From positions 1 to 22,301 of the IMG/VR virus record IMGVR_UViG_3300046652_000054: a stretch of DNA of 22,301 bases; one strand, 5' to 3'. The notes beneath the pieces were generated by a model that was given only the letters and a program-made list of their open reading frames with translations, had not been told where the DNA came from and ran no database searches. The translations under genes were made by a program, and so were the position numbers. This DNA is from a virus. Positions 9,532-22,207 of this stretch are shown here, piece after piece (positions within the stretch are counted from its first letter, which is position 1; every line of letters starts with the position of its first letter).

Positions 9532-12198
9532 TCATTGCGTTCGTCTGCGCGGAGTAACCTTGACATTACCTAAACGGCGATTCAGAAATCCTTCACCGCC
9601 AAGTGAGGCATGTTGAGGCTCATCTTTAATGGTGGCGCCATCACCAATATGGCGAACGAGAAATCCGCCGCTGCCCATTAAGGCGTGCTGTGGTTCCGTT
9701 TCCGATATAACGCCGGTCTCTAGATGCCGACCAAAAAATCCTTCAAGCAAAGAACCGTGAACCAGCAACTCAATAGAATCGTCAACTATCGGAGCAAAAG
9801 TAAACACTCGCGCGTCGGCCGCCAGGTTACCGAAGGCGGTCATTTCAGACTGAGCCGCAAGCAGCGCAGCCACTTGCGCGGCGAGTACGCCCTCGCCTAC
9901 AAGAATTCCGAATCCGCTGAATATCTGAAGCGTTATGGCATCGAGTGTGCCAGAGGCCATCAGACCGGCACGCGCCGCCAGGGACGCCTTTGTCGTGACC
10001 GAAAGAGAGCCGACGCCAGAGAGCGATGCGGAAGTAGCCATCAACATCGAGACGGAAGCATTAAGCGTTCCGACGCCGATTAGTGATTCGCTACTATCAA
10101 GCAATATCCGAGTAACTGCGGCAGTTAGAGCGCCGGCCCCGATCAGTTGTGCAGAGCCTTGCCATGCGGTTGTTGCGCCCGCAATCTGCGCTAAGGCCGC
10201 AAGACTGCCGGCCCCAGATAATAGGGCCACCGCGACCATGCGCTGTATGGCTGCAGACGCGAGCTGACCGTTACCTGTCAGCAGAGCCGTAGCTTGCGGA
10301 GTGTGCGAGGCACTAGCCGAAACGTAGCTGGTGCCAGCCAACACCGCCGCAGATAACATGGCCTGGGTGGCAGAGGCCGCCAGTCCGCCTATTCCGGAAA
10401 GCGCCGCGCTTATCTGCGCATTTAGAAGAACCGAGACAGATAGTGTACCAGAACCAACCAGCAGAGAAGTAGCTTGCCAAGCCGTTACTGCGCCCGCGAT
10501 CTGCGCAAATGCCGTTAGATTTCCAGCGCCCGACAACAGCGCCGCCGTAACCATGCGCTGAACTTCGGCAACTACAACCGAACCGTTGCCTGTTAGAACC
10601 GCCGTGCCCTGCGGGGTATGTATGGCGTTGGCCAAGACAGTGCCAGAAGCGGCGAGCAGCGCCGCAGCGGACATGGCCTGAGTAGCGGAGGCCGAAAGGT
10701 TACTGGTTCCTGCTAACAGCGCATTCGTTTGAGTATTGAGCAGAACTGAAGCGATTAGTGAACCGGACCCGGTCAGAACCGCAGATGCGGTTAGAAGGGT
10801 ATTCGCAGTTGTCGCCAGCACACCAGCGGCAGTAAACAGCGCCGTGGCTTGCGGCGTATGAGTAGCCGTTGCAAAGAATGCGCCAGCACCAACCAGAACA
10901 ACGGACGCAGCCAGAAGATCGGTCGCTGTTGCTGCCAGCGTTCCTGCACCAGCGAGCAACGACGTGGCCTGCGGCGTATGTGCGGCACTGGCCGAAACAT
11001 TTCCCGCGCCAGCCAACAGCGCTGCAGATAACATGAACTGCGAGGTAGAGGCCGAGAGCGTTCCAGAACCAGCCAACAGTGTATTCGTCTGCTCATTGAG
11101 CAGAGCATAAGCGATTAGCGAACCGGATCCGGTGAGAACAGCAGAGGCAGCCAGTAGTTCAGTTGCTGTTGCCGTCAGCGCGCCAACACCAGCCAGCAGA
11201 GCTGTAGCTTGCGGCGTGTGGGTGGCCGAGGCAGAGAGAGTACCAGAACCAACTAGCAGCGACGTAGCTTGCCAAGCCGTTACTGCGACTTGGACTGTGG
11301 CGTTGGCAGCTAAAGCTCCCGCGCCAGCAAGCAGAGACGTGGCTTGTGGTGTATGTGTGACAGAGGCAGAGAGCACACCAGCGCCGGATAAGACCGTGCT
11401 GGCTGCGAGCAACTGCACGGTAGACGCAACCAACGAGCCAGCGCCAGCGAGCTGAGACGTGACCTGAGGAGTGTGCGTAACAGAAGCAGAAAGAACGCCA
11501 GAACCAGCAGCAACCGCAGTGCCTGTCCATGAAACGCTGATACCACCTATCCATCCGACGCTCGATACGGCCTCGTCGTCGAAATAAAGGAAGGGTGTGT
11601 CGTTAACGGAGACGTCGGCAAAGTGAAGGAGGTATGCGTATGGATTGCCAGAATTCGTGTTTTGGTTGCCGACTAAGGAAACGACCGTAGAACCGTCGAC
11701 CTTGACCTGGATCGTTCCGACGGTGGAGCTGCGAAGAACGTGCCATTCGATCAGGTGCCATGCGTTCGCCGTCATCGCACCGGTGTTTCCCACAACGGTG
11801 GAATCGCCGGGGTCATAGACGTTAACTGAACCGTCGGTCTCTAGTTTAAAATTTATAGAGGTTCCACCACCGGTGTCTCTGACAGCAAATATGTACTTGA
11901 CTTCCGCCGCAGGATTTGCCGTGAACTGGAAGTAAAACCGGCCCCAGAGTTCGTTGGAACCCCACGAGATGCCAGTAAGTTGGATCTGGTGATTGGTGCT
12001 ACTAAGACCGAGTTTGGCGGCGTAGGTGCCGGAGTTAACCGGGCTGGTGACAATGCTCGCGGCGGAGCCGTTGGTGGTCCAGACCGCAGGAAAGGTGCCT
12101 CCGTTCTCAAATCCGTCAGTAAAATTTATGGTCTGGGTCGTCAAGTCGACCAGCGTACCGGTCAGACTGGTTCCTGCTGCGCCTGAACGAGTTGCCAT
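9532..12198 (-). CDS. Large repeat-rich fibre/adhesin with an N-terminal lectin-like domain
   Basis: Residues 15-225 of this 888-residue protein form a concanavalin A-like jellyroll: after the GFENGGTFPAVW opening come WGRFYFQFTANPAAEVKYIF, WHLIEWHVLRSSTVGTIQVK and a FLYFDDEAVSSVGWIGG end. Polysaccharide-binding and lyase-type phage domains look like this. Residues about 228-801 are about 28 repeats of 20 residues. The C-terminal 85 residues hold three H-x-S/M-L ... G-F-L-x-R units. No transmembrane or signal segment is seen. It follows the fibre-like pair (1-base gap) and precedes small structural genes, so it is probably a virion adhesin. The order is the reverse of the gene at 1-1862 (lectin first, then repeats). 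Codon spacing is regular over the whole length. Confidence 0.88.
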   Translation of the reverse strand: MATRSGAAGTSLTGTLVDLTTQTINFTDGFENGGTFPAVWTTNGSAASIVTSPVNSGTYAAKLGLSSTNHQIQLTGISWGSNELWGRFYFQFTANPAAEVKYIFAVRDTGGGTSINFKLETDGSVNVYDPGDSTVVGNTGAMTANAWHLIEWHVLRSSTVGTIQVKVDGSTVVSLVGNQNTNSGNPYAYLLHFADVSVNDTPFLYFDDEAVSSVGWIGGISVSWTGTAVAAGSGVLSASVTHTPQVTSQLAGAGSLVASTVQLLAASTVLSGAGVLSASVTHTPQATSLLAGAGALAANATVQVAVTAWQATSLLVGSGTLSASATHTPQATALLAGVGALTATATELLAASAVLTGSGSLIAYALLNEQTNTLLAGSGTLSASTSQFMLSAALLAGAGNVSASAAHTPQATSLLAGAGTLAATATDLLAASVVLVGAGAFFATATHTPQATALFTAAGVLATTANTLLTASAVLTGSGSLIASVLLNTQTNALLAGTSNLSASATQAMSAAALLAASGTVLANAIHTPQGTAVLTGNGSVVVAEVQRMVTAALLSGAGNLTAFAQIAGAVTAWQATSLLVGSGTLSVSVLLNAQISAALSGIGGLAASATQAMLSAAVLAGTSYVSASASHTPQATALLTGNGQLASAAIQRMVAVALLSGAGSLAALAQIAGATTAWQGSAQLIGAGALTAAVTRILLDSSESLIGVGTLNASVSMLMATSASLSGVGSLSVTTKASLAARAGLMASGTLDAITLQIFSGFGILVGEGVLAAQVAALLAAQSEMTAFGNLAADARVFTFAPIVDDSIELLVHGSLLEGFFGRHLETGVISETEPQHALMGSGGFLVRHIGDGATIKDEPQHASLGGEGFLNRRLGNVKVTPRRRTQ
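9568..9762 (-). repeat. Three-unit C-terminal repeat (H-x-x-L-x-G-x-G-F-L-x-R) in the lectin-repeat protein
   Basis: About residues 813-877 of the gene at 9532-12198 contain HGSLLEGFFGRHLETG, HALMGSGGFLVRHIGDG and HASLGGEGFLNRRLGN. The first two units end in EPQ right before the His of the next. Each unit is 24-25 residues. This differs from the 20-residue repeat upstream and may be a separate trimerisation or docking motif. Confidence 0.75.
9790..11517 (-). repeat. About 28 in-frame repeats of 60 bp (20 residues), three units with a 5-residue insert
   Basis: Units such as SLLAGAGTLAATATDLLAAS and AVLTGSGSLIASVLLNTQTN repeat at exactly 20 residues. Three units are 25 residues, each carrying (V/T)TAWQ: numbers 4, 17 and 22 from the N-terminus. 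HTPQ(A/V/G)T closes many units. Higher-order copies exist: units 17-18 and 22-23 resemble each other, as do 7 and 13. That is the trace of unequal recombination. The last four units are the most diverged. Confidence 0.92.
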
Positions 12199-12199
12199 G

Positions 12200-12592
12200 T
12201 CAGCCCAACGTGATCTTTAAGGCACCGGCAGCAATTGAGATTATATCCGCAGATGCGCAGCCAATGCTCGCCGTCACGGTTCCGAAGGCCAATCTGTTCC
12301 CAGCTGCTGCAGCATCATAGAGATTCCAACCGCGCACGGTCGCTATCGCCGTTGCTGTTCCTCCACTGATGGCGGCGACATTAGTGACAGAACCCTGCGG
12401 AGAGTTCATCGGTGCAAAAGTCACCGTCTGGCGCGCACCGACACCACTCACGCTAAACGGCCCATCTGACGCGCCATTAACATTTGGGCTTCCGGTCGCC
12501 CAACTTATAAACCGCCCAGCGGGCCGAGTGGCGGCAGCACCGCCAAGCATCCAATCGAGCGTTTGCTTTGCTAGATATTGGCTAAGCGGCAC
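12200..12592 (-). CDS. Tail fibre-like protein, second tandem copy
   Basis: I start at GTG 12592, 7 bases after the stop of the paralog upstream. The GTG is preceded by GGGG and lines up with the paralog's N-terminus, whereas the longer frame runs into it out of family. The 130-residue product reads VPLSQYLAKQTLDWMLGG, then an AV/VTFAP stretch, a W-N-L-Y-D-A segment with ...RLAFGTVTASIG, and ends GALKITLG. The paralog has the same opening (YLVKQTLDWMLGG) and ending (GALAITLG). The layout fits phage tail-fibre proteins with the aiyDA...G-x-l-x-y-g-x-l and final aG-x-l-x-i-x-l pattern. It stops 1 base before the lectin-repeat gene. Confidence 0.75.
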   Translation of the reverse strand: MPLSQYLAKQTLDWMLGGAAATRPAGRFISWATGSPNVNGASDGPFSVSGVGARQTVTFAPMNSPQGSVTNVAAISGGTATAIATVRGWNLYDAAAAGNRLAFGTVTASIGCASADIISIAAGALKITLG

Positions 12593-12599
12593 CCTGGCG

Positions 12600-12998
12600 T
12601 TACCCCAACGTGATGGCCAGAGCCCCAGCAGCCAGCACCAATGAGTCACCGATACCGTAAGTGCGGGCGGTCTGCAGCGTTCCATACCAAAGCATATTTG
12701 AGGATGCTATTGGACTGCCGTCCCAGAGGTGAATGCCGAGGGCTGACCCACCGGACGAGAACGGCCCAAATGTCATCGCGGCCGTGTTCGATGCACTTCC
12801 GGTTGGTGAGGCAGCGGCACCGAACAGGGCCGTCAACCTGGAGAAGTATCCCTGTGCGGCGGCGAGTTCTGACCCACTCACACTGGTCGGTGTGCCGGCT
12901 GCCAAGCCTGCCCAACGGTTTGCCGGTTGCGTTCCAGTGGCACCACCAAGCATCCAGTCGAGGGTTTGCTTGACGAGATATGCGCTGACACTAGCCAT
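12600..12998 (-). CDS. Tail fibre-like protein, first tandem copy
   Basis: This 132-residue protein starts MASVSAYLVKQTLDWMLGG and ends LAAGALAITLG. In between it has a Gly/Ser-rich head, an AAMTFGPF strand and IHLWDGSPIASSNMLWYGTL. This is the beta-sandwich pattern of a phage tail-fibre family. It is a tandem duplicate of 12200-12592. The start is firm: AGGAG lies 6 bases upstream and inside the last codons of the DUF5672-type gene, with which it overlaps by 8 bases. It is probably a virion-surface or fibre subunit. Confidence 0.78.
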   Translation of the reverse strand: MASVSAYLVKQTLDWMLGGATGTQPANRWAGLAAGTPTSVSGSELAAAQGYFSRLTALFGAAASPTGSASNTAAMTFGPFSSGGSALGIHLWDGSPIASSNMLWYGTLQTARTYGIGDSLVLAAGALAITLG

Positions 12999-13776
12999 GA
13001 ATAGCTCCTTTTAAGGTGGGTTGATCTTTCAGTAACTCTTTTACAATCTCAGGATTCTTTTGACAGAACGCCTTCATGAACTGGCTGTCTGGATTTGATA
13101 TGTAGGGCGACCGCAGCGCGATCCCCATGCGCTCAATCAAACGATCATGGTCGAGAACTTCGTTCCAGTTGAACATCCCGTGAAAACCGAAGTGCTTCGA
13201 TGTCGGGCTCGGGCGACAACATTCGAATGCGAAGTCATGGGCTACCTTCTCCGGCGCCCACAAAAATCCAGCGGTTTCTAGCTTTGGCCGATACTTGCGA
13301 CAGAGCAGATCGTCATCAACAGCAGTGTCGCATGGGAACTGATCGCGGCGATTGCAGATATATCGTTTTAGCCTCGTGCTGATGATTGAGAAGCCGCCGT
13401 TACCTACGTTCTTGCCGTCCTTGTACCACCAGGGAGCGCCCACATAGTCATAATCCATGAACTCGTCGCGCCACATTGACGTGTCCCAAATCCACGAGTC
13501 CCACTGAATGTTGAGAGTCTGGCGCGTTCGCAGAAGCGGGGGCACGTCGAACCACCAGGAGCGCGACCATCCCAGCTTGTCGGGCCAGTCGGGGACGATG
13601 TGAAAGCGCGGCTCACAGTGATGTGTCAGCGGTGAAAACTCTAGCGGTCGGTCGGTGACAATCAGCACCTCGCCAAACTCAGCCACGCGCAAGCAATCCT
13701 CAACAGCCATGCGGGCGAGATCATGCTCGCGTGTCTCTACCATCACCAGCGTTACATCAGGCAGTTTCAGTTTCAT
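12991..13776 (-). CDS. DUF5672-like glycosyltransferase-type protein
   Basis: The 261-residue product (start at ATG 13776) begins MKLKLPDVTLVMVETREHDL. It has the DUF5672 pattern: NIQWDSWIWDT, then YDYVGAPWW, VGNGGFSIISTRL, a FLWAPEKVAHDFAFE segment and HFGFHGMFNW. The family has a GT-A-like fold and occurs in surface-glycan loci. An upstream ATG at 13824 is possible but would extend into the overlapping small gene without a ribosome binding site. The substrate cannot be told. It overlaps the tail-fibre gene downstream by 8 bases. Confidence 0.85.
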   Translation of the reverse strand: MKLKLPDVTLVMVETREHDLARMAVEDCLRVAEFGEVLIVTDRPLEFSPLTHHCEPRFHIVPDWPDKLGWSRSWWFDVPPLLRTRQTLNIQWDSWIWDTSMWRDEFMDYDYVGAPWWYKDGKNVGNGGFSIISTRLKRYICNRRDQFPCDTAVDDDLLCRKYRPKLETAGFLWAPEKVAHDFAFECCRPSPTSKHFGFHGMFNWNEVLDHDRLIERMGIALRSPYISNPDSQFMKAFCQKNPEIVKELLKDQPTLKGAIHG

Positions 13777-13930
13777 TCTCACGTTCCACAACTTTCGCAG
13801 CGAGTTTGATCGCGTCAGCGTCATCCGTAACGTTAAAGATAATCTTGCCGGCCGCGTCTGCTACGGCTGTGCGCGATCCTGGTCGCTGACCACCAAACTC
13901 ATTGATAAGCCTAAGTGGTGTTTTAAGCAT
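13757..13930 (-). CDS. 57-residue protein, overlapping small gene
   Basis: A 57-codon frame starts at ATG 13930 (inside the last codons of the GT9 gene, ATGCTTAA overlap) and ends TGA at 13757. It translates to MLKTPLRLINEFGGQRPGSR followed by TAVADAAGKIIFNVTDDADA and an IKLAAKVV helix. The sequence is typical of small phage proteins, fills the gap between 13923 and 13776 exactly, and runs 20 bases into the DUF5672-type gene start. Translation is likely by coupling, since I see no Shine-Dalgarno. No function is known to me. Confidence 0.7.
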   Translation of the reverse strand: MLKTPLRLINEFGGQRPGSRTAVADAAGKIIFNVTDDADAIKLAAKVVERENETETA

Positions 13931-14990
13931 GGGCGCGTAACGGTACTACGTTATCAGCCACGTTCCAAAGTCTCTCGACATTCTCCATGATCGTATCGAC
14001 CGAGATATCGCTAATGCAGGCGGCAGCGTTTCCTCCGTCCTTGTTCGGCGTGCAGGTCGAGATGTCTGAATGGAGACGATGACACGGCCAGCATGGCACG
14101 TTGTTACGGTCGGCGCGCAGCGTCGTGGTGTTAATCCAATGCTTCGTAATGTTTTCCGCGCTCGCGTGCGACACCATAACGATCTTTGGCATTGACTCCA
14201 TCGCTGCGGCCCACGCCACTCCCGTATCTGGAGTGATTACCAAGTCCGAAGCTAAAACTTGCGTTAGGCTGCGGCGAATGGGCCAATCTTGATGTCCACC
14301 AGAATCCGCGCCATCAGGAGTCAGCGCCAGATGCAATCCCTTCAAACTGCTGTTGGTTCTTTTGACATCGGACTCGACCTGCTTGGCATATTCAAACTGG
14401 CGTCCGCCACCACCGACCATCACGACTGGGATGTCGAATTCCTTGATGATGCGGCAAATCGCCATCGCGGCGTAGGGATAAACCTTATCGATCCGTGAAC
14501 CTGAGAGAACCCAGGTTAAATACCGACCACCGATTGTCTCTCGTGTCTTGGCTGCCCGATCTTTTTCGTCGTCAGTTGGGAAAAACAGCGGACCAAATTC
14601 GTATGGCACGCCGACTATGTCATGCACCGTTTCAAGATAACTTCCGGCGCATAGCTTGCGGCGATATTCCGGTGACCACCAGAATGCGGTCTGGTCTGGC
14701 GTGAGCGCATGTCGTACTTCGCATGTATGCGAAAGATGTGCAAAGATGTCGTATTCGTTGGCCCGCGAAACAAACCACTTCTGCCATTCTGCCCCGCCAG
14801 GAATATCCTTCTCGCCCTTGATGCTCAGTTTATCGACGTAAGGGTTATTGAGAAACACCACATGCGAAAGTTCGGAAGTGATAACCTCCGTCATGTAGCC
14901 CATGCGTTTGAGCGGACGCAGCGTTGATGCGGCAATCAGATTGTCTCCGATTCCGCCCAAACGGGCAACCGCGGCCCAGCGATTGCTCAT
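13923..14990 (-). CDS. GT9-type (heptosyltransferase-like) glycosyltransferase
   Basis: This 355-residue protein carries the GT-B / GT9 core. The N-terminal glycine loop is ARLGGIGDNLIAASTLRPLK (residues 9-28). The middle linker holds GGRYLTWVLSGSRIDKVYP. The C-terminal nucleotide-sugar segment ASDLVITPDTGVAWAAAMES has the GT9 hallmark D-T-G. The late part has a Cys-rich tail (CWPCHRLHSDISTCTP). GT9 enzymes move heptose-type sugars onto lipid or protein acceptors; the acceptor here is unknown. It starts in a TGA/ATG overlap (ATGA) with the small gene upstream (14987-15211). Similar enzymes are known from phage genomes. Confidence 0.85.
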   Translation of the reverse strand: MSNRWAAVARLGGIGDNLIAASTLRPLKRMGYMTEVITSELSHVVFLNNPYVDKLSIKGEKDIPGGAEWQKWFVSRANEYDIFAHLSHTCEVRHALTPDQTAFWWSPEYRRKLCAGSYLETVHDIVGVPYEFGPLFFPTDDEKDRAAKTRETIGGRYLTWVLSGSRIDKVYPYAAMAICRIIKEFDIPVVMVGGGGRQFEYAKQVESDVKRTNSSLKGLHLALTPDGADSGGHQDWPIRRSLTQVLASDLVITPDTGVAWAAAMESMPKIVMVSHASAENITKHWINTTTLRADRNNVPCWPCHRLHSDISTCTPNKDGGNAAACISDISVDTIMENVERLWNVADNVVPLRAHA

Positions 14991-15211
14991 TGCACCAATT
15001 TCCCATCGCGCAGAATGTGAATCTTGCTTTCGTCAATTTTTAGTTCACCCATGCCACCGAGATCGGGCTGTTTTTTGACGCGCACAACATGATAAATGGC
15101 GACCGGCTTGACACCCGGTACGATCTGCCAACCGTCGGCGACCATCTTAGAAACCTCAGTCGGCAAATTATCATCGACTGGAATAACCTTGATCTCGTGT
15201 TCAATTTCCAT
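14987..15211 (-). CDS. Small conserved phage protein of unknown function
   Basis: The 74-residue protein reads MEIEHEIKVIPVDDNLPTEV then SKMVADGWQIVPGVKPVAIY, a compact alpha-beta pattern that recurs in small phage genes. It overlaps the GT9 start by 4 bases. It begins 10 bases past the downstream copy of the 43-bp direct repeat, so it probably once followed the connector gene directly (see the cassette entry). No Shine-Dalgarno is evident. Confidence 0.7.
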   Translation of the reverse strand: MEIEHEIKVIPVDDNLPTEVSKMVADGWQIVPGVKPVAIYHVVRVKKQPDLGGMGELKIDESKIHILRDGKLVQ

Positions 15212-15220
15212 GTCAGATGC

Positions 15221-15263
15221 TCACATCCAAACGCGATAGCTTTGAAGAAGTGACTGCACGGCG
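15221..15263 (-). repeat. Downstream copy of a 43-bp direct repeat, matching the connector gene's 3' end
   Basis: 42 of 43 bases match 17830-17872, with 38 bases (15226-15263 and 17835-17872) identical. In the connector gene the sequence codes the final AVQSLLQSYRVWT and stop. At 15221-15263 it lies alone between the stop of the GH99-like gene and the start of the small gene. It is a relic without coding use in that frame. Confidence 0.95.
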
Positions 15264-15271
15264 ATAGCTCA

Positions 15272-16390
15272 TTATGTTACACTTAGGAGCGATTGCCCCT
15301 TTGTTCCTGTAGGATCACCAATTGTAGGCATCATTGCTACGCCACCTTCGGCACACTCGGACCAGGAATAGACCAAGACGGTATGTGCGTCGCAAATCGC
15401 GGGGTTATTGGCGAAGTTGCTACCATGTTGAAAGTGAGTGGTAAGTTCAATCGGCGTCGGTTCAACAACTGAATTTGAAATAGGTGTCCAAAAACTAGGG
15501 GGCAGTTCATTTAAGGGAACTGGATTATATCCAACGTTGCAAGTCGGGACATAAGGAGAGAAGGCCGCCGCATCCGTTACCCAATAACCCTCAACACTTG
15601 CGGTCATCGCGGCGAAGGTTCCGTTAAGCCCTGACGGGATTGGACCAATATAGCGGGAATAGGCATCGGCACCGAGGGCAGTCGGCACCGTTCCGCTGCT
15701 TACCCCGCCAGTGATGACGACTAAATATGGATTACCAAAGCCAGCACCTTGCACAAGCGAGCGCAGAGCGTCTAGTGCTGCTTTGTAGTTTGCGTTACTG
15801 CCGCCCCAATAAGATGTGATATTGGCGGTGGTGTAATAGATGTAGATGAGCGGTCTATTACCCTTCACAAACATATACCAAGGGCTTTGAATATATGTCA
15901 GCGTGAGGGCGATCTGTGTGGAATAGTTACCTGTAGTGCCAAGTGTTCCGGTACTTTCCATCAGGCATAAGCGGGGTCGAGAAGGCTGGGTGCTGCTCAT
16001 ATAGAAATCAAGAGCAACATTCAATGTCGGCTGCACAGCCGGAGCGTAATGGTCAAAGACCCAGTAATCTAAACCGAATTTATTAGCCGCAAGGATTTCA
16101 TTGTCGAACGTAGCCTGCGATGCCGAAGCCCATGAGATTGTATTACTTCCTACCGTTGCATGAACCGGAGCGCGGAATTGCCAAGCATTAGGTGCAAGCG
16201 TACCAGGATTAACAGCCAGTTCGTATGGAACTGATCCGTTGACCATTGAGTACCAAGCATCCCAACGGATCGCGCCGAACTTCGGTCTATTGCGGACCCG
16301 CCGAAATCTTGATCCGCCAAAGCTCTGAGCGAGAGCCTTGTCGCCGATCAATGCAACCGATGCTGCCGTAAACAGTCGTCGAGTTATCAT
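15272..16390 (-). CDS. Exported GH99-like (glycan-acting) protein with a Tat-type signal
   Basis: The start is ATG 16390 (a TTG at 16396 is in frame). The 372-residue product begins MITRRLFTAASVALIGDKAL, with TRRLF matching the twin-arginine motif and a signal-peptidase-like ALAQ end. The mature part opens FGAIRWDAWYSM, then FDNEILAANKFGLDYWVFDH, a PLIYIYY strand, and near the C-terminus SWSECAEGGVAMMPTIGD. That acid-rich W-x-E-x-x-E-G-G plus P-T pattern is the GH99-like/WbsX-type signature, whose members act on mannose-type or capsule glycans. It starts 2 bases after the stop of the glycine-rich gene. Enzymatic activity is not established. Confidence 0.75.
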   Translation of the reverse strand: MITRRLFTAASVALIGDKALAQSFGGSRFRRVRNRPKFGAIRWDAWYSMVNGSVPYELAVNPGTLAPNAWQFRAPVHATVGSNTISWASASQATFDNEILAANKFGLDYWVFDHYAPAVQPTLNVALDFYMSSTQPSRPRLCLMESTGTLGTTGNYSTQIALTLTYIQSPWYMFVKGNRPLIYIYYTTANITSYWGGSNANYKAALDALRSLVQGAGFGNPYLVVITGGVSSGTVPTALGADAYSRYIGPIPSGLNGTFAAMTASVEGYWVTDAAAFSPYVPTCNVGYNPVPLNELPPSFWTPISNSVVEPTPIELTTHFQHGSNFANNPAICDAHTVLVYSWSECAEGGVAMMPTIGDPTGTKGQSLLSVT

Positions 16391-16392
16391 TT

Positions 16393-17256
16393 TCAATAAT
16401 GTATTACGAAGAAACCCTGACCACCGTTGCCCCCAGTGCCTCCGGTGGAGGTGCCGCCACCACCACCCCCTGCACCAAAACCAGGAGCAGTTATTGTGTT
16501 TCCTACCGCTCCCGCCGCTCCACCATTTCCGCCGTGCCCAAAGAAACTACTTCCACCACCGCCACCACTGCCATTACCGCCCCCACCTGCACCATCCACT
16601 GTGCTGCCGCCATGAGCAGGACCATATATGACGCTATTCCCACCTGTACCTCCTGCGGACGCCGTTGCACCGCCGCCACCACCACCCGCTCCTGCGACAG
16701 TACCCCAGCCGCGTGATCCGGCGAATGAAGCACCGGTTGCCGCAGATGCCCCTCCTGCTGAGCCAGCAATGCCACCGCCATTACCACCGATTCCGCCTGT
16801 CCCTGCTGCGCCTACAATGCCTGGATTTCCCATAGTTAAAGATGGAAAAGTACCGAGAACATCCCCAGTCAATGTGGAAGCCGTTGTTACCGACCCCGAA
16901 GAACCGACGTTTCCACCGGCCCCGCCGGCTGTAACGGTTAGGGTAAGAGTTGACCCTGGCGTAACAGCAAGGGGATAACTAATGACGCAATACCCTGAAC
17001 CCCCACCCCCACCACCTGCCGTGGTGGCACTGTTCTGGCCTCCTCCACCACCTCCGCCGGGCCCGCATGCATCAACAAAAACCATTGTTACATTAGGAGG
17101 AACAATCCAAGTCTGTGCACTTGTGCTGTTAGAGCATCCCGTAACGGCGGTATTTGTGAAGCATACGCTTTGCTGCGCGTAACTCGACGGCCCAACTGTC
17201 TGTGCCGCAAGCGGCGTCGCAAGCAAGAGGGCGAAAAGTGCGATAAGTTTTTTCAT
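16393..17256 (-). CDS. Exported glycine-rich adhesin-type protein
   Basis: This 287-residue protein has a Sec-type signal MKKLIALFALLLATPLAAQ with the cut near residue 19. It then has a short N-domain with four Cys and TWIVPPNVTMVFVDACGPGG, and a long Gly tract (GGGGGGG, GGNGG, GAGGGGGG) ending GGQGFFVIHY. The tract resembles the polyglycine adhesin domain of phage tail-tip proteins (Gly_rich type). Virion adhesins usually lack a signal peptide, so its presence is odd. It sits between two other signal-peptide genes in the cassette. Repeated GGA/GGT-rich sequence makes it prone to slippage. Confidence 0.78.
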   Translation of the reverse strand: MKKLIALFALLLATPLAAQTVGPSSYAQQSVCFTNTAVTGCSNSTSAQTWIVPPNVTMVFVDACGPGGGGGGGQNSATTAGGGGGGSGYCVISYPLAVTPGSTLTLTVTAGGAGGNVGSSGSVTTASTLTGDVLGTFPSLTMGNPGIVGAAGTGGIGGNGGGIAGSAGGASAATGASFAGSRGWGTVAGAGGGGGGATASAGGTGGNSVIYGPAHGGSTVDGAGGGGNGSGGGGGSSFFGHGGNGGAAGAVGNTITAPGFGAGGGGGGTSTGGTGGNGGQGFFVIHY

Positions 17257-17257
17257 A

Positions 17258-17767
17258 TTACTGGCTCGTCACGATGTAGCCGTCACCAGCGGTGCCGGTG
17301 ATTCCGACTGCGTCTGTTAAAACAACTGGCCCGGCATTACAGGATATTGTTTGACCGGCATTAATCTGAAACGAGTTAGAAGTTGTTGCCGATCCGAGTG
17401 TGCCGAAGTAAATGTACTGCACATGCGCTCCGGTATTTTGCAGCAAACACCCTTTGCGCGTTGCAGAGGCAGCCAATGCAGCCTGAAATGTATTGGTGAC
17501 GGAAACAGTAGAATTCACTGTGGTTGTTGTTGCTGCGGTTGTTGTTCCTTGTCCCGAACTTCCCGAACATTGATAAGTCCCGGCCGCATTGTATATTGGG
17601 ACGGCTTGTCCCGACAAATTTATGCAAAGTTGTACGAAGCTTCCGACGGTATCATGTCCATTCGGGGTTGGCCAAATCATCTGCGCAAATGCTGCAGATG
17701 AAATTCCAAATGCCAAACATCCGGCAAAAATAGCGGGTGCGAATGCACGTCTCATGAGCGATCGCAT
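17258..17767 (-). CDS. Exported protein of unknown function
   Basis: This 169-residue protein starts MRSLMRRAFAPAIFAGCLAF with a hydrophobic core and an SSAAFAQ cleavage site near residue 29. The mature part is Thr/Ser/Gly-rich with a TTTAATTTTVNSTVSV tract and a short beta-rich C-domain (ATRKGCLLQNTGAHVQYIYF, then INAGQTISCN). Four cysteines are present in the mature protein and could form disulfides. GGAG lies 9 bases upstream of the ATG. I recognise no family. It opens the cassette behind the connector gene. Confidence 0.72.
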   Translation of the reverse strand: MRSLMRRAFAPAIFAGCLAFGISSAAFAQMIWPTPNGHDTVGSFVQLCINLSGQAVPIYNAAGTYQCSGSSGQGTTTAATTTTVNSTVSVTNTFQAALAASATRKGCLLQNTGAHVQYIYFGTLGSATTSNSFQINAGQTISCNAGPVVLTDAVGITGTAGDGYIVTSQ

Positions 17768-17829
17768 TTCTATATCTCCGATTGGGGCAGTGAGTCTTTA
17801 TCCGATATCAAATGGCGAAGGGACGAGGA

Positions 17830-17872
17830 TCACGTCCAAACGCGATAGCTTTGAAGAAGTGACTGCACGGCG
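17830..17872 (-). repeat. Upstream copy of the 43-bp direct repeat (inside the connector gene's 3' end)
   Basis: This is the coding copy: it encodes the connector's last residues, AVQSLLQSYRVWT, and its stop. The other copy is at 15221-15263. See that entry for the match. Confidence 0.95.
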
Positions 17873-18561
17873 CCATTGAGGGCAGTTTCAGCTCCACCGC
17901 CCATTGTCCAGCCTTTATCGGAAACTCCAGGAATCGTGTCTCGGCTTAGAAAAAGATTGCGCGCCGTCAGAGATCGAAAATGGCTCGCCTGCAACGTGAT
18001 CCCCATTCTAATGTCTTCTGGAACGTCAGAACCTTTATCTCCATAGCCGGCGATGAACCGAACCACGACCGAACCAGGCGTCAACGCGGACGATGGCCAA
18101 CTCGCGCCAGCCACCAGAGATAAATCGGATGGCGCATCTTTGTTTACGATGTAGGTCGCCGGATCGAGTGTCTGTGGCGCACCATTCACATCGGTATAGG
18201 TGACACTCACTACTTGCTGCAGCGGCGGCAGTGGAATCGCGATGCCGTGACGTTTCTTCGAACTATACGGATACGTCCCCCACAATTCCTGTGGGTACGG
18301 ATACCAGACTTCCTGCGGATAAAACCCTTTTTCCTGGTAGTAATAATTCGATGTCGGGAAGCGATCGAGCACCAAATCCCAAGTCTGTGTCACCAGCGCG
18401 CGCCCGAGCCATCCATCCCTGCCGTCAATCATATTACGGGAGGCCGAGATCATCGCCTTCATTACATCGTCAGAAACTTCATCACCGATATTGAGCCTCG
18501 CCTTCGCTTCCGCGGCGGTCAATGGTTCAACAGCCGGTCCGGCGACGAGATTCAGCGACAT
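17830..18561 (-). CDS. Head-tail connector protein (phiE125 gp8-like)
   Basis: This 243-residue protein starts MSLNLVAGPAVEPLTAAEAK and continues as a helical ISASRNMIDGRDGWLGRALV stretch, the usual opening of the phiE125 gp8 / gp6-type connector that docks on the portal. A beta-rich middle follows (IPLPPLQQVVSVTYTDVNG), then GSVVVRFIAGYGDKGSDVPE with a long C-terminal helix and a LLQSYRVW end. Residues 70-104 are an unusual Tyr/Pro/Trp-rich loop (YYYQEKGFYPQEVWYPYPQE). It lies 3 bases behind the GT-B-like gene. Its 3' end is the repeat used at the cassette boundary. Confidence 0.88.
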   Translation of the reverse strand: MSLNLVAGPAVEPLTAAEAKARLNIGDEVSDDVMKAMISASRNMIDGRDGWLGRALVTQTWDLVLDRFPTSNYYYQEKGFYPQEVWYPYPQELWGTYPYSSKKRHGIAIPLPPLQQVVSVTYTDVNGAPQTLDPATYIVNKDAPSDLSLVAGASWPSSALTPGSVVVRFIAGYGDKGSDVPEDIRMGITLQASHFRSLTARNLFLSRDTIPGVSDKGWTMGGGAETALNGAVQSLLQSYRVWT

Positions 18562-18564
18562 GGA

Positions 18565-19425
18565 TCACCGCTTATTGCAGTATTTTAGGAATTTCTGGCA
18601 TTCCGCAACAATCAGATCGGCACGATCATCGCACCAGACTAAACGCTGATAGTCTGGCGAGCTCGGCAATTGCTGCCCCGGAGTTACACCGCATTGCTGA
18701 AAATAACTCTCGGTAAATACATGCAGATGGCCGGCGATCGTCGGCTTGAACATCAGAACCGGAGCATCAAGCGCAATGGCAAACCACGCCGGCCCATTTG
18801 ACACGAACAGATTGCACAATGCGGAACGATAGAGTGCGGCACGGGCCTTAAGATCGACGGCAGCCTCGACATTGATCGGAAACAGTGCAATCGGCTCGGC
18901 ACATTTGCGAGTATCGCGTACGAAAACGATGTTATAACCGAGACAGGACAGTTCTTCTGCGGCGCGGATCCATTGTGCAAAGTCACTATTTCGTTCCGGC
19001 CAATGATCGGCTTCCCGCAACGTGATGGTGATCAGTTTTTCCTTTTGTCGCGGCTCGACTAAGGGACGCAGTGGTCGACTGCCGTCCTTTAACGCCTTGA
19101 CATGAACGGCCAGGCCATAAAGTGAAACGCCAAACCCGACTGAATTAGCAACCGGCTGCGTCGGACGATCGTTCGCCACTTCAACCGTTGCGGACGGCAG
19201 CAGATGCGCCATCGGCAACGCAATCTGTTCGAGCATAAGACGTCTGACAGTTATTTCACGCGGCCACAAATTATCTCGACGAAATCCCCCCACTGGCCCA
19301 GGAAGGATAATAATATTTAGTTGACTCTCATCCCTTCTAATCCGCTCCGCTTCTATCTCACTGAGAAACGAAACGATGTCATAACTTGCCGGCGATGTCG
19401 CGAGATCATAATAAGCCGTCAGCAT
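18565..19425 (-). CDS. GT-B-like glycosyltransferase-type protein
   Basis: I start at ATG 19425, where the ATG overlaps the TGA of the GT-A-like gene upstream (AATGCTGA). An ATG at 19470 would add 15 residues that read poorly. The 286-residue product has the two-domain layout of GT-B enzymes: an N-part with IIILPGPVGGFRRDNLWP and a C-part with LITITLREADHWPERNSDFA, LGYNIVFVRDTRK and ALCNLFVSNGPAWFAIALDA. The last of these resembles the GT9-type D-T-G-x-x-x-A-A-x segment (here SNGPAW), as in the gene at 13923-14990. Acceptor and sugar are unknown. It is the last gene before the connector. Confidence 0.72.
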   Translation of the reverse strand: MLTAYYDLATSPASYDIVSFLSEIEAERIRRDESQLNIIILPGPVGGFRRDNLWPREITVRRLMLEQIALPMAHLLPSATVEVANDRPTQPVANSVGFGVSLYGLAVHVKALKDGSRPLRPLVEPRQKEKLITITLREADHWPERNSDFAQWIRAAEELSCLGYNIVFVRDTRKCAEPIALFPINVEAAVDLKARAALYRSALCNLFVSNGPAWFAIALDAPVLMFKPTIAGHLHVFTESYFQQCGVTPGQQLPSSPDYQRLVWCDDRADLIVAECQKFLKYCNKR

Positions 19426-20369
19426 TGCTGGAAATCGTCGTTTCTGGCAGCCGCCAGAATTTGCGTACATATTTCATGATCGCCGATATCAACTCGATTT
19501 CCACATATTGCAATCTGATGCTCAAACATCCATCGATGCATCGGGTTGGTGTGGCGTCGCGTCGGGAAATTCTCATCCTTATCCGACGCCCACTTAGCCA
19601 CACTACCCACGCTCATCTTGTCAGCCATGAGTGGCAAGTTTCCCCAACCTGGAACTCGGGGGGATACTTCAGCAAAGGCCGCCTCGCCTGACCCGGTTAC
19701 GATGTGAATCTCGTCGCGAGCATAGGAACTGACCAATTCATTATCGATCGTCGTTCCAAAATCGATCGAGCGATCCTTGATCAGTGAAAACGGATGCAGA
19801 TGAAACGCGCGCATCACAATATCTTCGCCGCGCCGAAAATAAATTGTAAAAGGACACGCACAATGGCCTTCATCCCAGAACCGCTCGATGACAGACGGAT
19901 GCCTATGCTGCATCGTCCAGACTAATAATTCTGACGCAGAAACACCAATCGGCGGGATATCATCGGCGACCGTACTGGTCGCCGCCATCATAATTAGCCG
20001 TTTCCCATGATTGAATTGATGCTCGGCTGCAGCAAAACATTCTATCGATGGCACCATATCCGCATTGATGAAGGCTATGCACTCTCCTTCCGCAGCTAAT
20101 TCCAATGCCTCACGGTGAGCAGCGCCAAGTGAGTGATATGGATCCCGCTCGATTACTGGTTTCTTAATCCTTATATCGGCAGCGAGATTTCCAAGCGCAT
20201 TTCTTATTTTCTCAGGCTGATCGGTCTGCACCAGGAAACGGACATTACCGCTGATACCGGGTAGAGCCGCCTTTACTCCCGGCAAGGTCACTCTACAAAA
20301 AAGATCGACGCAACGCGGTCCCCACGCCGGAATACAGATCAGCCAATCATAGTTTCGGTACGCTCTCAC
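19419..20369 (-). CDS. GT-A-like protein, second of two tandem paralogs
   Basis: A 316-residue protein starting at GTG 20369, where GTGA overlaps the stop of the paralog upstream. It has WLICIPAWGPRCVDLFCRVT, then FINADMVPSIECFAAAEHQF (a D-x-M element of the GT-A type), then GKRLIMMAATS and IYFRRGEDIVMRAFHLHPFS. The paralog upstream has the same order: WIITIPTWGQRCNDAF, FLCADMVVSVECFAFAEKRF, IYFKRGKNIVLRAFHLHPFA. Nucleotide-sugar transfer is likely by fold but unproven. It lacks the N-terminal module of its paralog. Confidence 0.75.
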   Translation of the reverse strand: MRAYRNYDWLICIPAWGPRCVDLFCRVTLPGVKAALPGISGNVRFLVQTDQPEKIRNALGNLAADIRIKKPVIERDPYHSLGAAHREALELAAEGECIAFINADMVPSIECFAAAEHQFNHGKRLIMMAATSTVADDIPPIGVSASELLVWTMQHRHPSVIERFWDEGHCACPFTIYFRRGEDIVMRAFHLHPFSLIKDRSIDFGTTIDNELVSSYARDEIHIVTGSGEAAFAEVSPRVPGWGNLPLMADKMSVGSVAKWASDKDENFPTRRHTNPMHRWMFEHQIAICGNRVDIGDHEICTQILAAARNDDFQQC

Positions 20370-21397
20370 GGCCTTGGCGATGGCAGTTGACGCAACACAT
20401 CCTCGACGATTTTAATTTCGCCACACTGGCCGGTTCCCGTGATCGTGATCGGGTTGTCGCTAAAGAACCAACGATGAACGTCGATCGTGTTTCTAGATGC
20501 CCATGCTGCGATGCTATCAACCGTGATCGGTGTCGAGCGCCCTCCGAGTATCCGACTCAATGGAGAGACTTCGGCCATTGCCATCTCATTCGCGCCCGCG
20601 ACCACATGAATCTCGGCGTGCGAATAAGACGCAGCCAGATCGTAGTCAATTGTCGCACCGGAAAATTTTAACTTGTTGTCTTTGACGGCCGCAAATGGAT
20701 GCAGATGAAACGCGCGCAGTACGATATTCTTTCCGCGCTTGAAATAAATTGCCCACGGAACGTCACCTTTACCGGTTTCCCAGAAGCAATCGACCGTGAT
20801 CGGATGCGGATGTCGCATCGTCCATGCCAAAAGATCGCGAGATTTTGCTCCGATTGGTGGTTCATCGCCAAACGTGCGCGATGAAGCCCCCATGATTATC
20901 TTCTTGCCTTGCGCAAATCGTTTTTCCGCAAAGGCAAAACATTCCACCGACACAACCATGTCGGCACAGAGAAAACAGATAAATTGGCCATCGCCAGCTA
21001 GGTTAATCGCATCAATATGCGCCGTACCCAACTTATGATGCGGCGATCGGCCAGCCGGCACCACTCTAAAAAAAACGTCCAGCCCCTCCATGGCTTTCTT
21101 GATTCGGATCGGATCATCGGTATGGATCAAAAAACGCGCGGGTACTTTCGCCAGCCTCAATGCCGCCCGCAGTGATGGCAGACCGACATTAATAAAAGCA
21201 TCGTTACAGCGCTGGCCCCAGGTCGGAATAGTGATGATCCAGCGCGGCGTCGATTCTCCTTGTTGAGAGTTGGCGTCCAGTTCGGCTAAGCCATGCAGAA
21301 CTAATTCTCTAGCCCGTGACTCGCTCGCCAAAAAGATCTGTTCCGGTTCGACGTGCCCTTCGTGCTCTGCGTTGAACCATGACCGGAGCGCTTTCAT
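20366..21397 (-). CDS. GT-A-like protein with an N-terminal KALRSWFNAE module, first of two tandem paralogs
   Basis: I start at ATG 21397 (in-frame GTGs at 21400 and 21406 are possible). Residues 1-45 (MKALRSWFNAEHEG to ARELVLHGLAEL) resemble the small protein encoded at 21917-22207, which begins MSVRMKALKAWHNAEYEG. The rest is GT-A-like: IITIPTWGQRCNDAFINVGL, FLCADMVVSVECFAFAEKRF, then IYFKRGKNIVLRAFHLHPFA and EIHVVAGANEMAMAEVSP. The product is 343 residues. The gene overlaps the Rossmann-like gene by about 89 bases. A fusion of a head-side module with a transferase is unusual. The substrate is unknown. Confidence 0.75.
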   Translation of the reverse strand: MKALRSWFNAEHEGHVEPEQIFLASESRARELVLHGLAELDANSQQGESTPRWIITIPTWGQRCNDAFINVGLPSLRAALRLAKVPARFLIHTDDPIRIKKAMEGLDVFFRVVPAGRSPHHKLGTAHIDAINLAGDGQFICFLCADMVVSVECFAFAEKRFAQGKKIIMGASSRTFGDEPPIGAKSRDLLAWTMRHPHPITVDCFWETGKGDVPWAIYFKRGKNIVLRAFHLHPFAAVKDNKLKFSGATIDYDLAASYSHAEIHVVAGANEMAMAEVSPLSRILGGRSTPITVDSIAAWASRNTIDVHRWFFSDNPITITGTGQCGEIKIVEDVLRQLPSPRP

Positions 21398-21899
21398 CAC
21401 GATCACGGTTGAGCGCCTTTTCCAAACTCATGATCGGATATGAAGTAAGAGCCGAAGACGCGCTCGCGTTGATAATCTCGACACCCATACCGACCAGTTC
21501 ACTGGCTGCCTCATCAAGAATGCGGCGCCACTTGATTACGTTATCGAGACCAGGATTACCGAGCTCCGTTCTATGCTCGCCATGCCAGTGAACGCCGTTG
21601 TCGACCCTCATATCGAAGCCGACTAGCACGATGCGGCACGCCCCGAGTTGCACCGCCAGATTGATCGCTTGAAATCCACTGTTGCCGCCGGAGCCGATAT
21701 AGCCCCGAGATGTGATGATGCGATTGCAGCCTTCGTAGTCATCGCCAGAGTTGACGCATTCGATGAATTGCAGGGCCGGATATCGTTCGCGGACTTCCCT
21801 GAAGCAAGTAAATTTGGCTCCCTCAAATTCCGGCAATCCGGCATTTAAGAACCACCACTTGCCATCGCCGGCATAGAGGGCATCGGCCCACGGTGCCAA
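21309..21899 (-). CDS. Rossmann-like phage protein of the glycan/DUF115 type (start uncertain)
   Basis: The frame from TTG 21899 codes APWADALYAGDGKWW, then RGYIGSGGNSGFQAINLAVQ, LGACRIVLVGFDM and HWHGEH. This set is known from phage proteins that resemble DUF115 / sialyltransferase-like Rossmann folds (the G-x-G-G-N-S-G-x-x-A motif and the V-G-F-D-M strand). The family's normal N-terminus lies upstream in the same frame: TVVIIASGPSAANENL, then AKVLVVNESWRLAPW (21998 to 21897). So 21899 is not the true start. No ATG, GTG or TTG exists in this frame between 21900 and the stop at 22128. The C-terminal tail past SALTSYPIMSLEKAL runs into the next gene for about 90 bases. Confidence 0.68.
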   Translation of the reverse strand: MAPWADALYAGDGKWWFLNAGLPEFEGAKFTCFREVRERYPALQFIECVNSGDDYEGCNRIITSRGYIGSGGNSGFQAINLAVQLGACRIVLVGFDMRVDNGVHWHGEHRTELGNPGLDNVIKWRRILDEAASELVGMGVEIINASASSALTSYPIMSLEKALNRDRDESAPVMVQRRARRARRTGTDLFGERVTG

Positions 21900-22022
21900 T
21901 CGCCAGCTTTCATTGACTACAAGAACTTTCGCTCGCCCCCTGATTTGCGTGAGGTTTTCATTGGCTGCGCTTGGGCCGGAGGCGATGATGACGACTGTTC
22001 GATTTTGCCAGCCTCGCCGAAT
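21900..22022 (-). CDS. N-terminal extension of the Rossmann-like protein, overlapping 21917-22207 in another frame
   Basis: Reading the frame of 21309-21899 upstream gives codons for IRRGWQNRTVVIIASGPSAA and NENLTQIRGRAKVLVVNESW, a textbook first beta-strand and glycine loop. The opposite frame is also good coding sequence for the small protein. The only unusual starts in range are ATT 22022 and ATC codons at 22046 and 22070. Alternatives are an un-annotated -1 frameshift from the small gene or an indel. I saw no slippery heptamer in the overlap. Confidence 0.6.
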
Positions 22023-22207
22023 TCTAAAGGGCGAGGTGGTGCCGATTGCACTTCCAGCTTCGGCTTCGATACCACGCGAACCGCGAGTTGACCGCGCTCC
22101 AGATCGCGCGCACGGTCTTCCGTCGCATTAAATTCCTGATTGATAATCACGGTGCCTTCATACTCAGCATTGTGCCAAGCTTTCAGGGCTTTCATTCGGA
22201 CTGACAT
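21917..22207 (-). CDS. Small head-side protein (KALKAW module)
   Basis: I start at ATG 22207 because AGGAGA lies 6 bases upstream. A longer ATG frame from 22255 would read through the terminator hairpin. The 96-residue product MSVRMKALKAWHNAEYEGTV has an Asp/Glu/Arg-rich helix (ATEDRARDLERGQLAV) and a disordered Ser/Pro tail with a basic end (SPPAQAQPMKTSRKSGGERK). Such proteins commonly lie next to the capsid gene in related phages. It overlaps the Rossmann-like coding signal in a -1 frame. Its N-terminal module recurs in 20366-21397. Confidence 0.8.
   Translation of the reverse strand: MSVRMKALKAWHNAEYEGTVIINQEFNATEDRARDLERGQLAVRVVSKPKLEVQSAPPRPLEFGEAGKIEQSSSSPPAQAQPMKTSRKSGGERKFL

Follow-up and report, generated by a model that had tools for sequence, protein, structure and literature searches.

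The window analyzed here, the whole of a 22.3 kb viral contig (22,301 nucleotides; IMG/VR record IMGVR_UViG_3300046652_000054), comes from an uncultured, soil-type phage and carries a late operon on the - strand. Within this operon, genes for glycosyltransferase-like enzymes lie among head, tail and fibre genes. They form two clusters, one on each side of the head-tail adaptor gene at 17830: a head module (18565-22207) and a fibre module (9532-14990; Table 1). With somewhat better than even confidence, these clusters are read as two modules of late genes for glycosylating the phage's own virion proteins, in the head and in the fibres.

Gene Content of the Window

A second contig, L004, represents the same phage (99.99% identical) and reaches farther upstream, through the terminase, portal, protease and HK97-type major capsid genes. 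The capsid gene is followed by a small open reading frame (ORF) encoding a protein here called DOCK, a sialyltransferase-like gene, two GT-A genes, P0003 and the head-tail adaptor. Past the adaptor lie three genes with export signals (recognized by eye), a small ORF, a GT9-fold gene, a DUF5672 gene, two Gp80-type fibre genes, a 20-residue-repeat fibre gene and tail genes. Membrane segments were predicted from sequence in none of the proteins P0001-P0006. A megablast search of the window against cultured phages returned no match.

The enzyme cluster had been proposed in a preliminary description made from the sequence alone. All of the ORFs named there were found at the positions given, on the - strand, and the block reaches from just behind the major capsid gene, which is present on L004, to the fibre genes. 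The presence of sugar enzymes among head-tail genes holds; their description as a single block does not, as the two modules have separate distributions. Clustering beyond chance is borne out by relatives in which the flanking genes are kept while the enzymes are swapped, and by the recurrence of the fibre-side set in about 60 other non-redundant loci. Of the seven calls for sugar enzymes, the GT-B call at 18565 and the GH99 call at 15272 were not confirmed; the other five were upheld.

Table 1. Features of the late operon discussed in the text, with positions in the window
Feature	Position	Strand	Basis or remark
Small post-capsid protein DOCK (P0025)	21917..22207	-	ORF, 96 aa: ~45-aa domain and Pro/Ser-rich tail
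Canonical -1 slippery heptamer C_CCT_TTA	22025..22031	-	In DOCK reading frame
Sialyltransferase-like domain (P0006; phrog_4603, weak MptE-like)	21309..22025	-	Via predicted -1 frameshift; N-terminus without ATG/GTG/TTG
DOCK domain and GT-A glycosyltransferase, in-frame fusion (P0005)	20366..21406	-	Homology, predicted fold
GT-A paralogue without DOCK (P0004)	19419..20369	-	45% identical to P0005
Possible GT-B-like protein (P0003), family not confirmed	18565..19470	-	
Head-tail adaptor	17830..18561	-	TIGR02215 (5e-28), phrog_442
Repeat-flanked cassette 15264-17829: genes 17258, 16393 (Gly-rich), 15272 ('GH99-like'), predicted export signals	15221..17872 including repeats	-	
Small conserved protein, 5' of GT9-like gene in a subset of relatives	14987..15211	-	
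GT9-fold glycosyltransferase (P0002), iron-finger-type four-Cys set	13923..14990	-	
DUF5672 protein, probable glycosyltransferase by context	12991..13824	-	PF18922
Gp80-type fibre protein a	12600..12998	-	PF23140
Gp80-type fibre protein b; annotated start probably too far upstream	12200..12685	-	
20-residue-repeat Ala/Ser/Thr-rich fibre, S+T 22%	9532..12198	-	

Enzymes of the Head Module and Their Shared Small Domain

The gene at 21309 had been called Rossmann-like. The enzyme call stands and becomes more specific: the product, P0006, matches phrog_4603 ('alpha-2,3-sialyltransferase', E 1.9e-37), a name that is an annotation for an activity that is only predicted. The ORF as first drawn does not stand, being truncated with a GPS motif upstream; once the upstream frame is added, the Rossmann N-terminus with this motif is complete. 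The GT-A-like calls at 20366 and 19419 were confirmed, the former by the predicted fold of P0005 and the latter as its paralogue. The P0005 model (pLDDT, predicted local distance difference test, 75.7) is matched best by AvpGT (Z 16.4), and WrtF, K4CP, TarP and SpsA also match; its top structural matches are all glycosyltransferases, with Z of 13-16 over residues 52-307. D149, at the acidic GT-A position for metal and nucleotide, is kept in all five homologues compared. A tblastn search with P0005 against cultured phages gave no match. For P0003, the GT-B call was not confirmed: a match to NCBIfam TIGR04372 was sub-threshold (E 0.08), and profile comparison with the GT9 family yielded none (hhalign probability 1.4%).

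Over its first 45 residues, P0005 matches the small post-capsid protein. The related loci L005 and L006 retain the adaptor (78%), the sialyltransferase-like gene (81%), the small ORF (70%) and residues 1-64 of P0005 (52%). Behind residue 64, however, they have a different domain, some 340 residues long, and a methyltransferase comes next. A relative of the L006 domain has no Pfam match, and the enzyme family of this domain is unproven. Because the P0005 N-terminus matches P0025 and is kept in L005 and L006, one small domain, DOCK, is recognized in three settings: free, fused to a GT-A enzyme and fused to another enzyme-like domain. Similar small ORFs were seen by eye 5' of the sialyltransferase-like gene in L017, L088 and the phages D3, S20 and Psp6. 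A tblastn search with DOCK in phages found none, and the ORFs of D3, S20, Psp6 and L017 are likened to it by size, place and motif only.

Glycan-type genes recur at this position in other phages. In L173 and L174, which have an unrelated connector, the capsid gene is followed by an extra head-like gene, an MptE-like gene (2e-17, 8e-14), one or two GT-A genes and the connector. The sialyltransferase-like gene occurs with other glycan-type genes before the adaptor in L014, L017 and L029. The gene order recurs in Pseudomonas phage D3, where orf6-orf6.5-orf7-orf9 are the capsid, small ORF, sialyltransferase-like and head-tail adaptor genes and a -1 heptamer (CCCAAAG) is present; D3 differs in that the small ORF and the sialyltransferase-like gene are annotated as two separate genes and the DOCK-GT-A fusion is not seen. 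PmgO of phage P1 belongs to the same sialyltransferase-like family and is labelled with a putative morphogenetic function, but it has its own ATG, is not beside the capsid gene and lacks a slippery heptamer.

In two relatives of this phage (L006:3346-4350 and L010:6487-7443), a Cys-rich protein that appears by eye to be HNH-type is inserted directly after the capsid gene (334 and 318 aa, related at 8e-41).

A Predicted -1 Frameshift

P0006 is annotated from a start within its fold. Upstream, the same frame encodes the N-terminus left out by that start (TVVIIASGPSAANEN...) and offers no ATG, GTG or TTG; the same is true of L006. The upstream frame overlaps the end of the small ORF, and the two frames are related such that a -1 shift would lead from the small ORF into P0006. 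Just past the DOCK domain sits the heptamer C_CCT_TTA, with the geometry X_XXY_YYZ in the upstream frame. The predicted DOCK-sialyltransferase-like fusion is 299 aa long.

A canonical -1 heptamer was found in all six start-less homologues examined: CCCTTTA in the window, CCCTTTG in L006, L017 and S20, AAAAAAA in L088 and TTTTTTG in Psp6. Its letters thus vary between loci while slipperiness is retained. C_CCT_TTG was found in L006 and, independently, in the more distant L017, and in S20 the CCCTTTG lies exactly at the opening of the sialyltransferase frame. Among homologues with a possible start, a heptamer is present in 2 of 14 (Fisher p 7e-4 against the start-less set), namely D3 and its relative D14C, both with CCCAAAG; these two have in-frame GTG or TTG codons upstream, and independent starts are possible there. 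Homologues with their own start and no heptamer include P1 PmgO, PAJU2, Eowyn, C1, L029 and L093. Multiplied over the six start-less loci, the chance probabilities, each computed against its own-locus background, give 1.4e-8; leaving out the related L006 raises this to about 1e-6. A non-standard start for the gene at 21309 was considered and is disfavoured by the heptamer pattern. Judged from sequence, P0006 is apparently joined to DOCK by a -1 ribosomal frameshift, which is also predicted in D3.

The addition of folded domains to virion proteins by this route has precedent. Ig-like domains are known to be added to phage coat proteins by -1 frameshift, as in A2 and T3 (PMC5009743). The present case would be alike in that a virion-region protein gains a folded domain by ribosomal frameshift; it differs in that the domain gained resembles a glycosyltransferase and that the ORF being extended encodes a small post-capsid protein, not a coat protein. 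The available text of PMC5009743 and of the PRFect paper makes no mention of glycosyltransferase-like domains added by frameshift, and no paper describing them was found in the open-access literature.

This precedent also suggests a different role for the head module. The sialyltransferase-like and DOCK-fused domains may be low-copy decorations of the head that bind sugars, with little or no catalysis. The genetic trick would be the same as for the Ig-like extensions (PMC5009743), the P0006 homologues of PAJU2 and Eowyn carry the annotation label 'structural protein', and a frameshift yields a fixed ratio of minor to major product that suits assembly. Such a role is nevertheless judged distinctly unlikely, given that the enzyme-like domain following DOCK differs between phages, that P0005 keeps D149 and that neighbouring enzymes without DOCK exist.

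The GT9-Fold Enzyme and the Fibre Module

The gene at 13923 had been described as GT9-like. Its product, P0002, has no PF01075 match in the window and no Pfam hit (NCBIfam E 0.035 only), and PDB searches with its sequence and with its profile gave nothing significant. The AlphaFold2 (AF2) model, built with 53 homologues, reached a pLDDT of 93.9 and shows a GT-B fold of the GT9 type, which supports the earlier call. It is matched by the GT9 protein 3tov (Z 24.8 over 287 residues), WaaF (Z 24.4), WaaC (Z 20) and TibC (Z 19.8); chains of the NDH-PSI supercomplex also rank among the fold matches. Because the curated model PF01075 gave no match, P0002 is described as GT9-fold and not as a member of the family. 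The structure-based assignment that had been proposed was run for two genes, giving a GT9 fold for P0002 and GT-A for P0005.

Two aspartates of P0002, D16 and D255, are invariant across 53 sequences, together with four cysteines. D16 aligns with the Asp of the GD motif in the N-lobe and D255 lies in the D-[ST]-[GA] motif of the C-lobe; both line up with an Asp in E. coli WaaF, WaaC, WaaU and WaaQ. Catalytically dead enzymes in relatives had been named as an outcome that would count against glycosylation, and the retention of D16 and D255 in P0002 and of D149 in P0005 speaks against dead enzymes. The cysteines, at 300/303/313/325, have the spacing CxxC-x9-C-x11-C. This set is absent from all four lipopolysaccharide (LPS)-core GT9s of E. 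coli, the only GT9s compared as controls, and other bacterial GT9s may have it.

A similar set is known from TibC, a heptosyltransferase that modifies the beta-helical adhesin TibA and whose iron finger is formed by four cysteines (Cys339/342/358/370; PMC4358343). P0002 resembles TibC and the bacterial autotransporter heptosyltransferases in its GT9-like GT-B catalytic fold and in the place of its gene beside a repetitive adhesin. The first and last cysteine spacings are equal, whereas the middle one is 15 in TibC (CxxC-x15-C-x11-C) and 9 in P0002. Residues 1-352 of P0002 align with TibC 92-397, and P0002 lacks the N-terminal beta-barrel; for this reason it was not placed in the TibC family.

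Relatives of P0002 were found 91 times in IMG/VR viral contigs, corresponding to 62 non-redundant loci, and not at all by tblastn among 50,697 records of cultured phages. The GT9 and GT-A alignments were also scanned over genome contigs (85,000 genomes for GT9) and no relative was confirmed, an absence that is weak as the scans relied on short peptide patterns; such pattern-based scans of collections miss distant relatives. In the GT9 loci, gene maps show an FkbM-like methyltransferase in 38 of 61 and a DUF5672 gene in 26 of 61, followed by Gp80 and repeat-fibre genes. The methyltransferase is matched weakly by Pfam (1.6e-4), and in several loci the GT9 and methyltransferase regions form a single ORF. 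In the window, the DUF5672 call at 12991 was confirmed at E 1e-13. Gp80 or repeat-fibre genes lie downstream of GT9 in 44 of the 45 loci with at least 6 kb of downstream sequence. The reverse search from Gp80 found a glycan-type gene within 3 kb upstream in 26 of 28 distinct loci with at least 3 kb upstream (GT9 in 24). Loci within one family share ancestry, and these counts are not fully independent events. In control loci chosen by the adaptor alone, several of them on short contigs, GT9, Gp80, fibre, FkbM methyltransferase or DUF5672 genes occurred in 0 of 37. The fibre module follows the adaptor in L048, precedes it in L049 and is also present where this adaptor was not seen, as in L050, which looks podovirus-like by its portal.

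The fold of P0002 raised the main rival to virion glycosylation, in which the enzymes would alter the LPS or capsule of the infected cell, for superinfection exclusion or receptor change, and their position among virion genes would only provide late expression. LPS modification was the first reading considered from the GT9 fold. The best structural matches of P0002 are LPS heptosyltransferases and a GT9, and its relatives are accompanied by a UDP-sugar dehydrogenase and methyltransferases. Membrane-bound transferases and flippases, as used in Gtr-type serotype conversion cassettes, are not among P0001-P0006, and the GT9 family stays beside fibre genes in diverse phages while being absent from the adaptor-only controls. 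Four cysteines of similar spacing, moreover, are found in the protein-modifying TibC and not in the four E. coli LPS-core GT9s. Modification of the host surface was ranked lower because of the fibre linkage and the lack of membrane parts, and is considered rather improbable.

Two further observations concern these proteins. In D14C, a D3-like Pseudomonas phage, a gene annotated as a GT9 heptosyltransferase lies shortly after the head-tail adaptor (L186:5060-5528). At window 3-1862, an N-terminal phage minor tail domain (PF05939) is combined with an Ala/Ser/Thr-rich repeat of the same type as in the fibre, so that the repeat is common to two virion proteins.

Proposed Glycosylation of Virion Proteins

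Glycosylation of virion proteins had been suggested in the preliminary description. It is the best-supported reading and is strengthened by the comparative data; the predicted frameshift fusion and the shared small domain are additions to that description. It is preferred because the enzymes are soluble, their catalytic residues are kept, they are constantly linked to the presumed acceptor genes and, in the head module, they are tied to a small head-region protein by fusion or by the predicted frameshift. The gene content, the folds and catalytic positions of P0002 and P0005, the virion-gene linkage and the start-less N-terminus with its slippery site are what the analysis shows.

In the proposed mechanism, the small DOCK protein would be made after the major capsid gene, and a fraction of ribosomes would slip back by one at CCCTTTA to produce the DOCK-sialyltransferase-like fusion. 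A second copy of DOCK would be made in frame with a GT-A enzyme, next to which the free GT-A paralogue is encoded. DOCK most likely binds a head protein and would bring soluble transferases to the assembling capsid. In the fibre module, the GT9-fold transferase and the DUF5672 protein, often with a methyltransferase in relatives, would attach and cap sugars on the products of the genes immediately downstream, the Gp80-type and 20-residue-repeat fibres. The likely acceptors are therefore the fibre and Gp80 for the GT9 module and a head protein for the DOCK-linked enzymes. In two other loci (L034:8516-9541 and L037:8456-9481), long Ser/Pro repeat proteins of the SASxSPS type, possible O-glycan acceptors, stand directly before the adaptor.

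A broader view can be put forward only tentatively, as it is thought less probable than glycosylation by the two modules. In this view, programmed -1 frameshifting would let tailed phages link exchangeable glycosyltransferases to a small protein of the head, and the assembling capsid or the mature virion would then carry its own sugar-modifying enzymes in a low, fixed proportion. Such a system would be modular, with parts that can be swapped, would so far have escaped annotation and would extend to cultured phages, D3 among them.

Several points weigh against virion glycosylation. Frameshifting in vivo, the binding of DOCK to the head and sugar transfer to capsid and fibre are predictions from the genes. 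The 74 nt 3' of the window's slippery site show nothing unusual as a stimulatory RNA structure (z +0.84); downstream structure is helpful at bacterial frameshift sites and is no strict requirement. LPS synthesis is the classical role of GT9 enzymes, and modification of host surface sugars by phages is known to occur. Shared descent of related phages, or a hotspot for moron genes of any kind, could account for the linkage of GT9 to fibres. The sialyltransferase-like family is also found away from capsid genes, in P1 (PmgO) and phiNP. In L009, this adaptor region is without any of these enzymes, and the modification is therefore not essential.

Phage glycosyltransferases that act on the virion have been described. 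In mycobacteriophages Che8 and Rita, they are reported to attach glycans to the major capsid proteins (Freeman et al., 2023, as cited in PMC11256854). The phages are alike in encoding glycosyltransferases themselves, with an acceptor that is presumed in the present case. According to the available text of PMC11256854, the genes lie near the 3' genome end in the related Maravista; those described here flank the capsid and fibre genes and include a predicted frameshifted fusion.

If virion glycosylation is correct, the order capsid, small ORF, frameshifted glycosyltransferase-like gene and adaptor would flag glycosylated capsids from sequence alone, and the order GT9, DUF5672 or methyltransferase, Gp80 and repeat fibre would do so for glycosylated fibres. 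The orf6.5 and orf7 genes of the laboratory phage D3 would gain a testable function. Swapping of the catalytic domain behind a constant docking domain may then be how phages change their sugar coat. To our knowledge, virion glycosylation in tailed phages has been proven in a few cases only, with enzymes and acceptors that are hard to recognize.

The Repeat-Flanked Cassette and Export-Signal Genes

A cassette of 2.6 kb between the two modules is bounded by direct repeats of 43 bp (17830-17872 and 15221-15263, 42 of 43 positions identical), whose sequence is that of the adaptor gene's 3' end. The repeats are likely the footprint of cassette insertion or excision. In L005 and L006 the whole block 9532-17829 is missing.

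Such variability raises the question of whether both gaps are recombination hotspots that gather unrelated genes, as moron cargo without a common function. The repeats around the cassette, the lack of the block in L005 and L006 and the lack of the enzymes in L009 are what this would predict. It would leave unexplained that the replacements are repeatedly glycan-related (L006, L014, L017 and L029) and that the gene order recurs in phages with different connectors, and it is regarded as very improbable.

The cassette gene at 15272 had been called GH99-like, a call that found no match in Pfam, PHROGs, NCBIfam or PDB; its relatives were found only in the same phage. Apparent Sec-type signal peptides are present on the products of 17258, 16393 (Gly-rich) and 15272 (window 15272-17767), among head-tail genes. 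Two other signal-peptide proteins are encoded in the capsid-adaptor gap of L009 (5355-6486).

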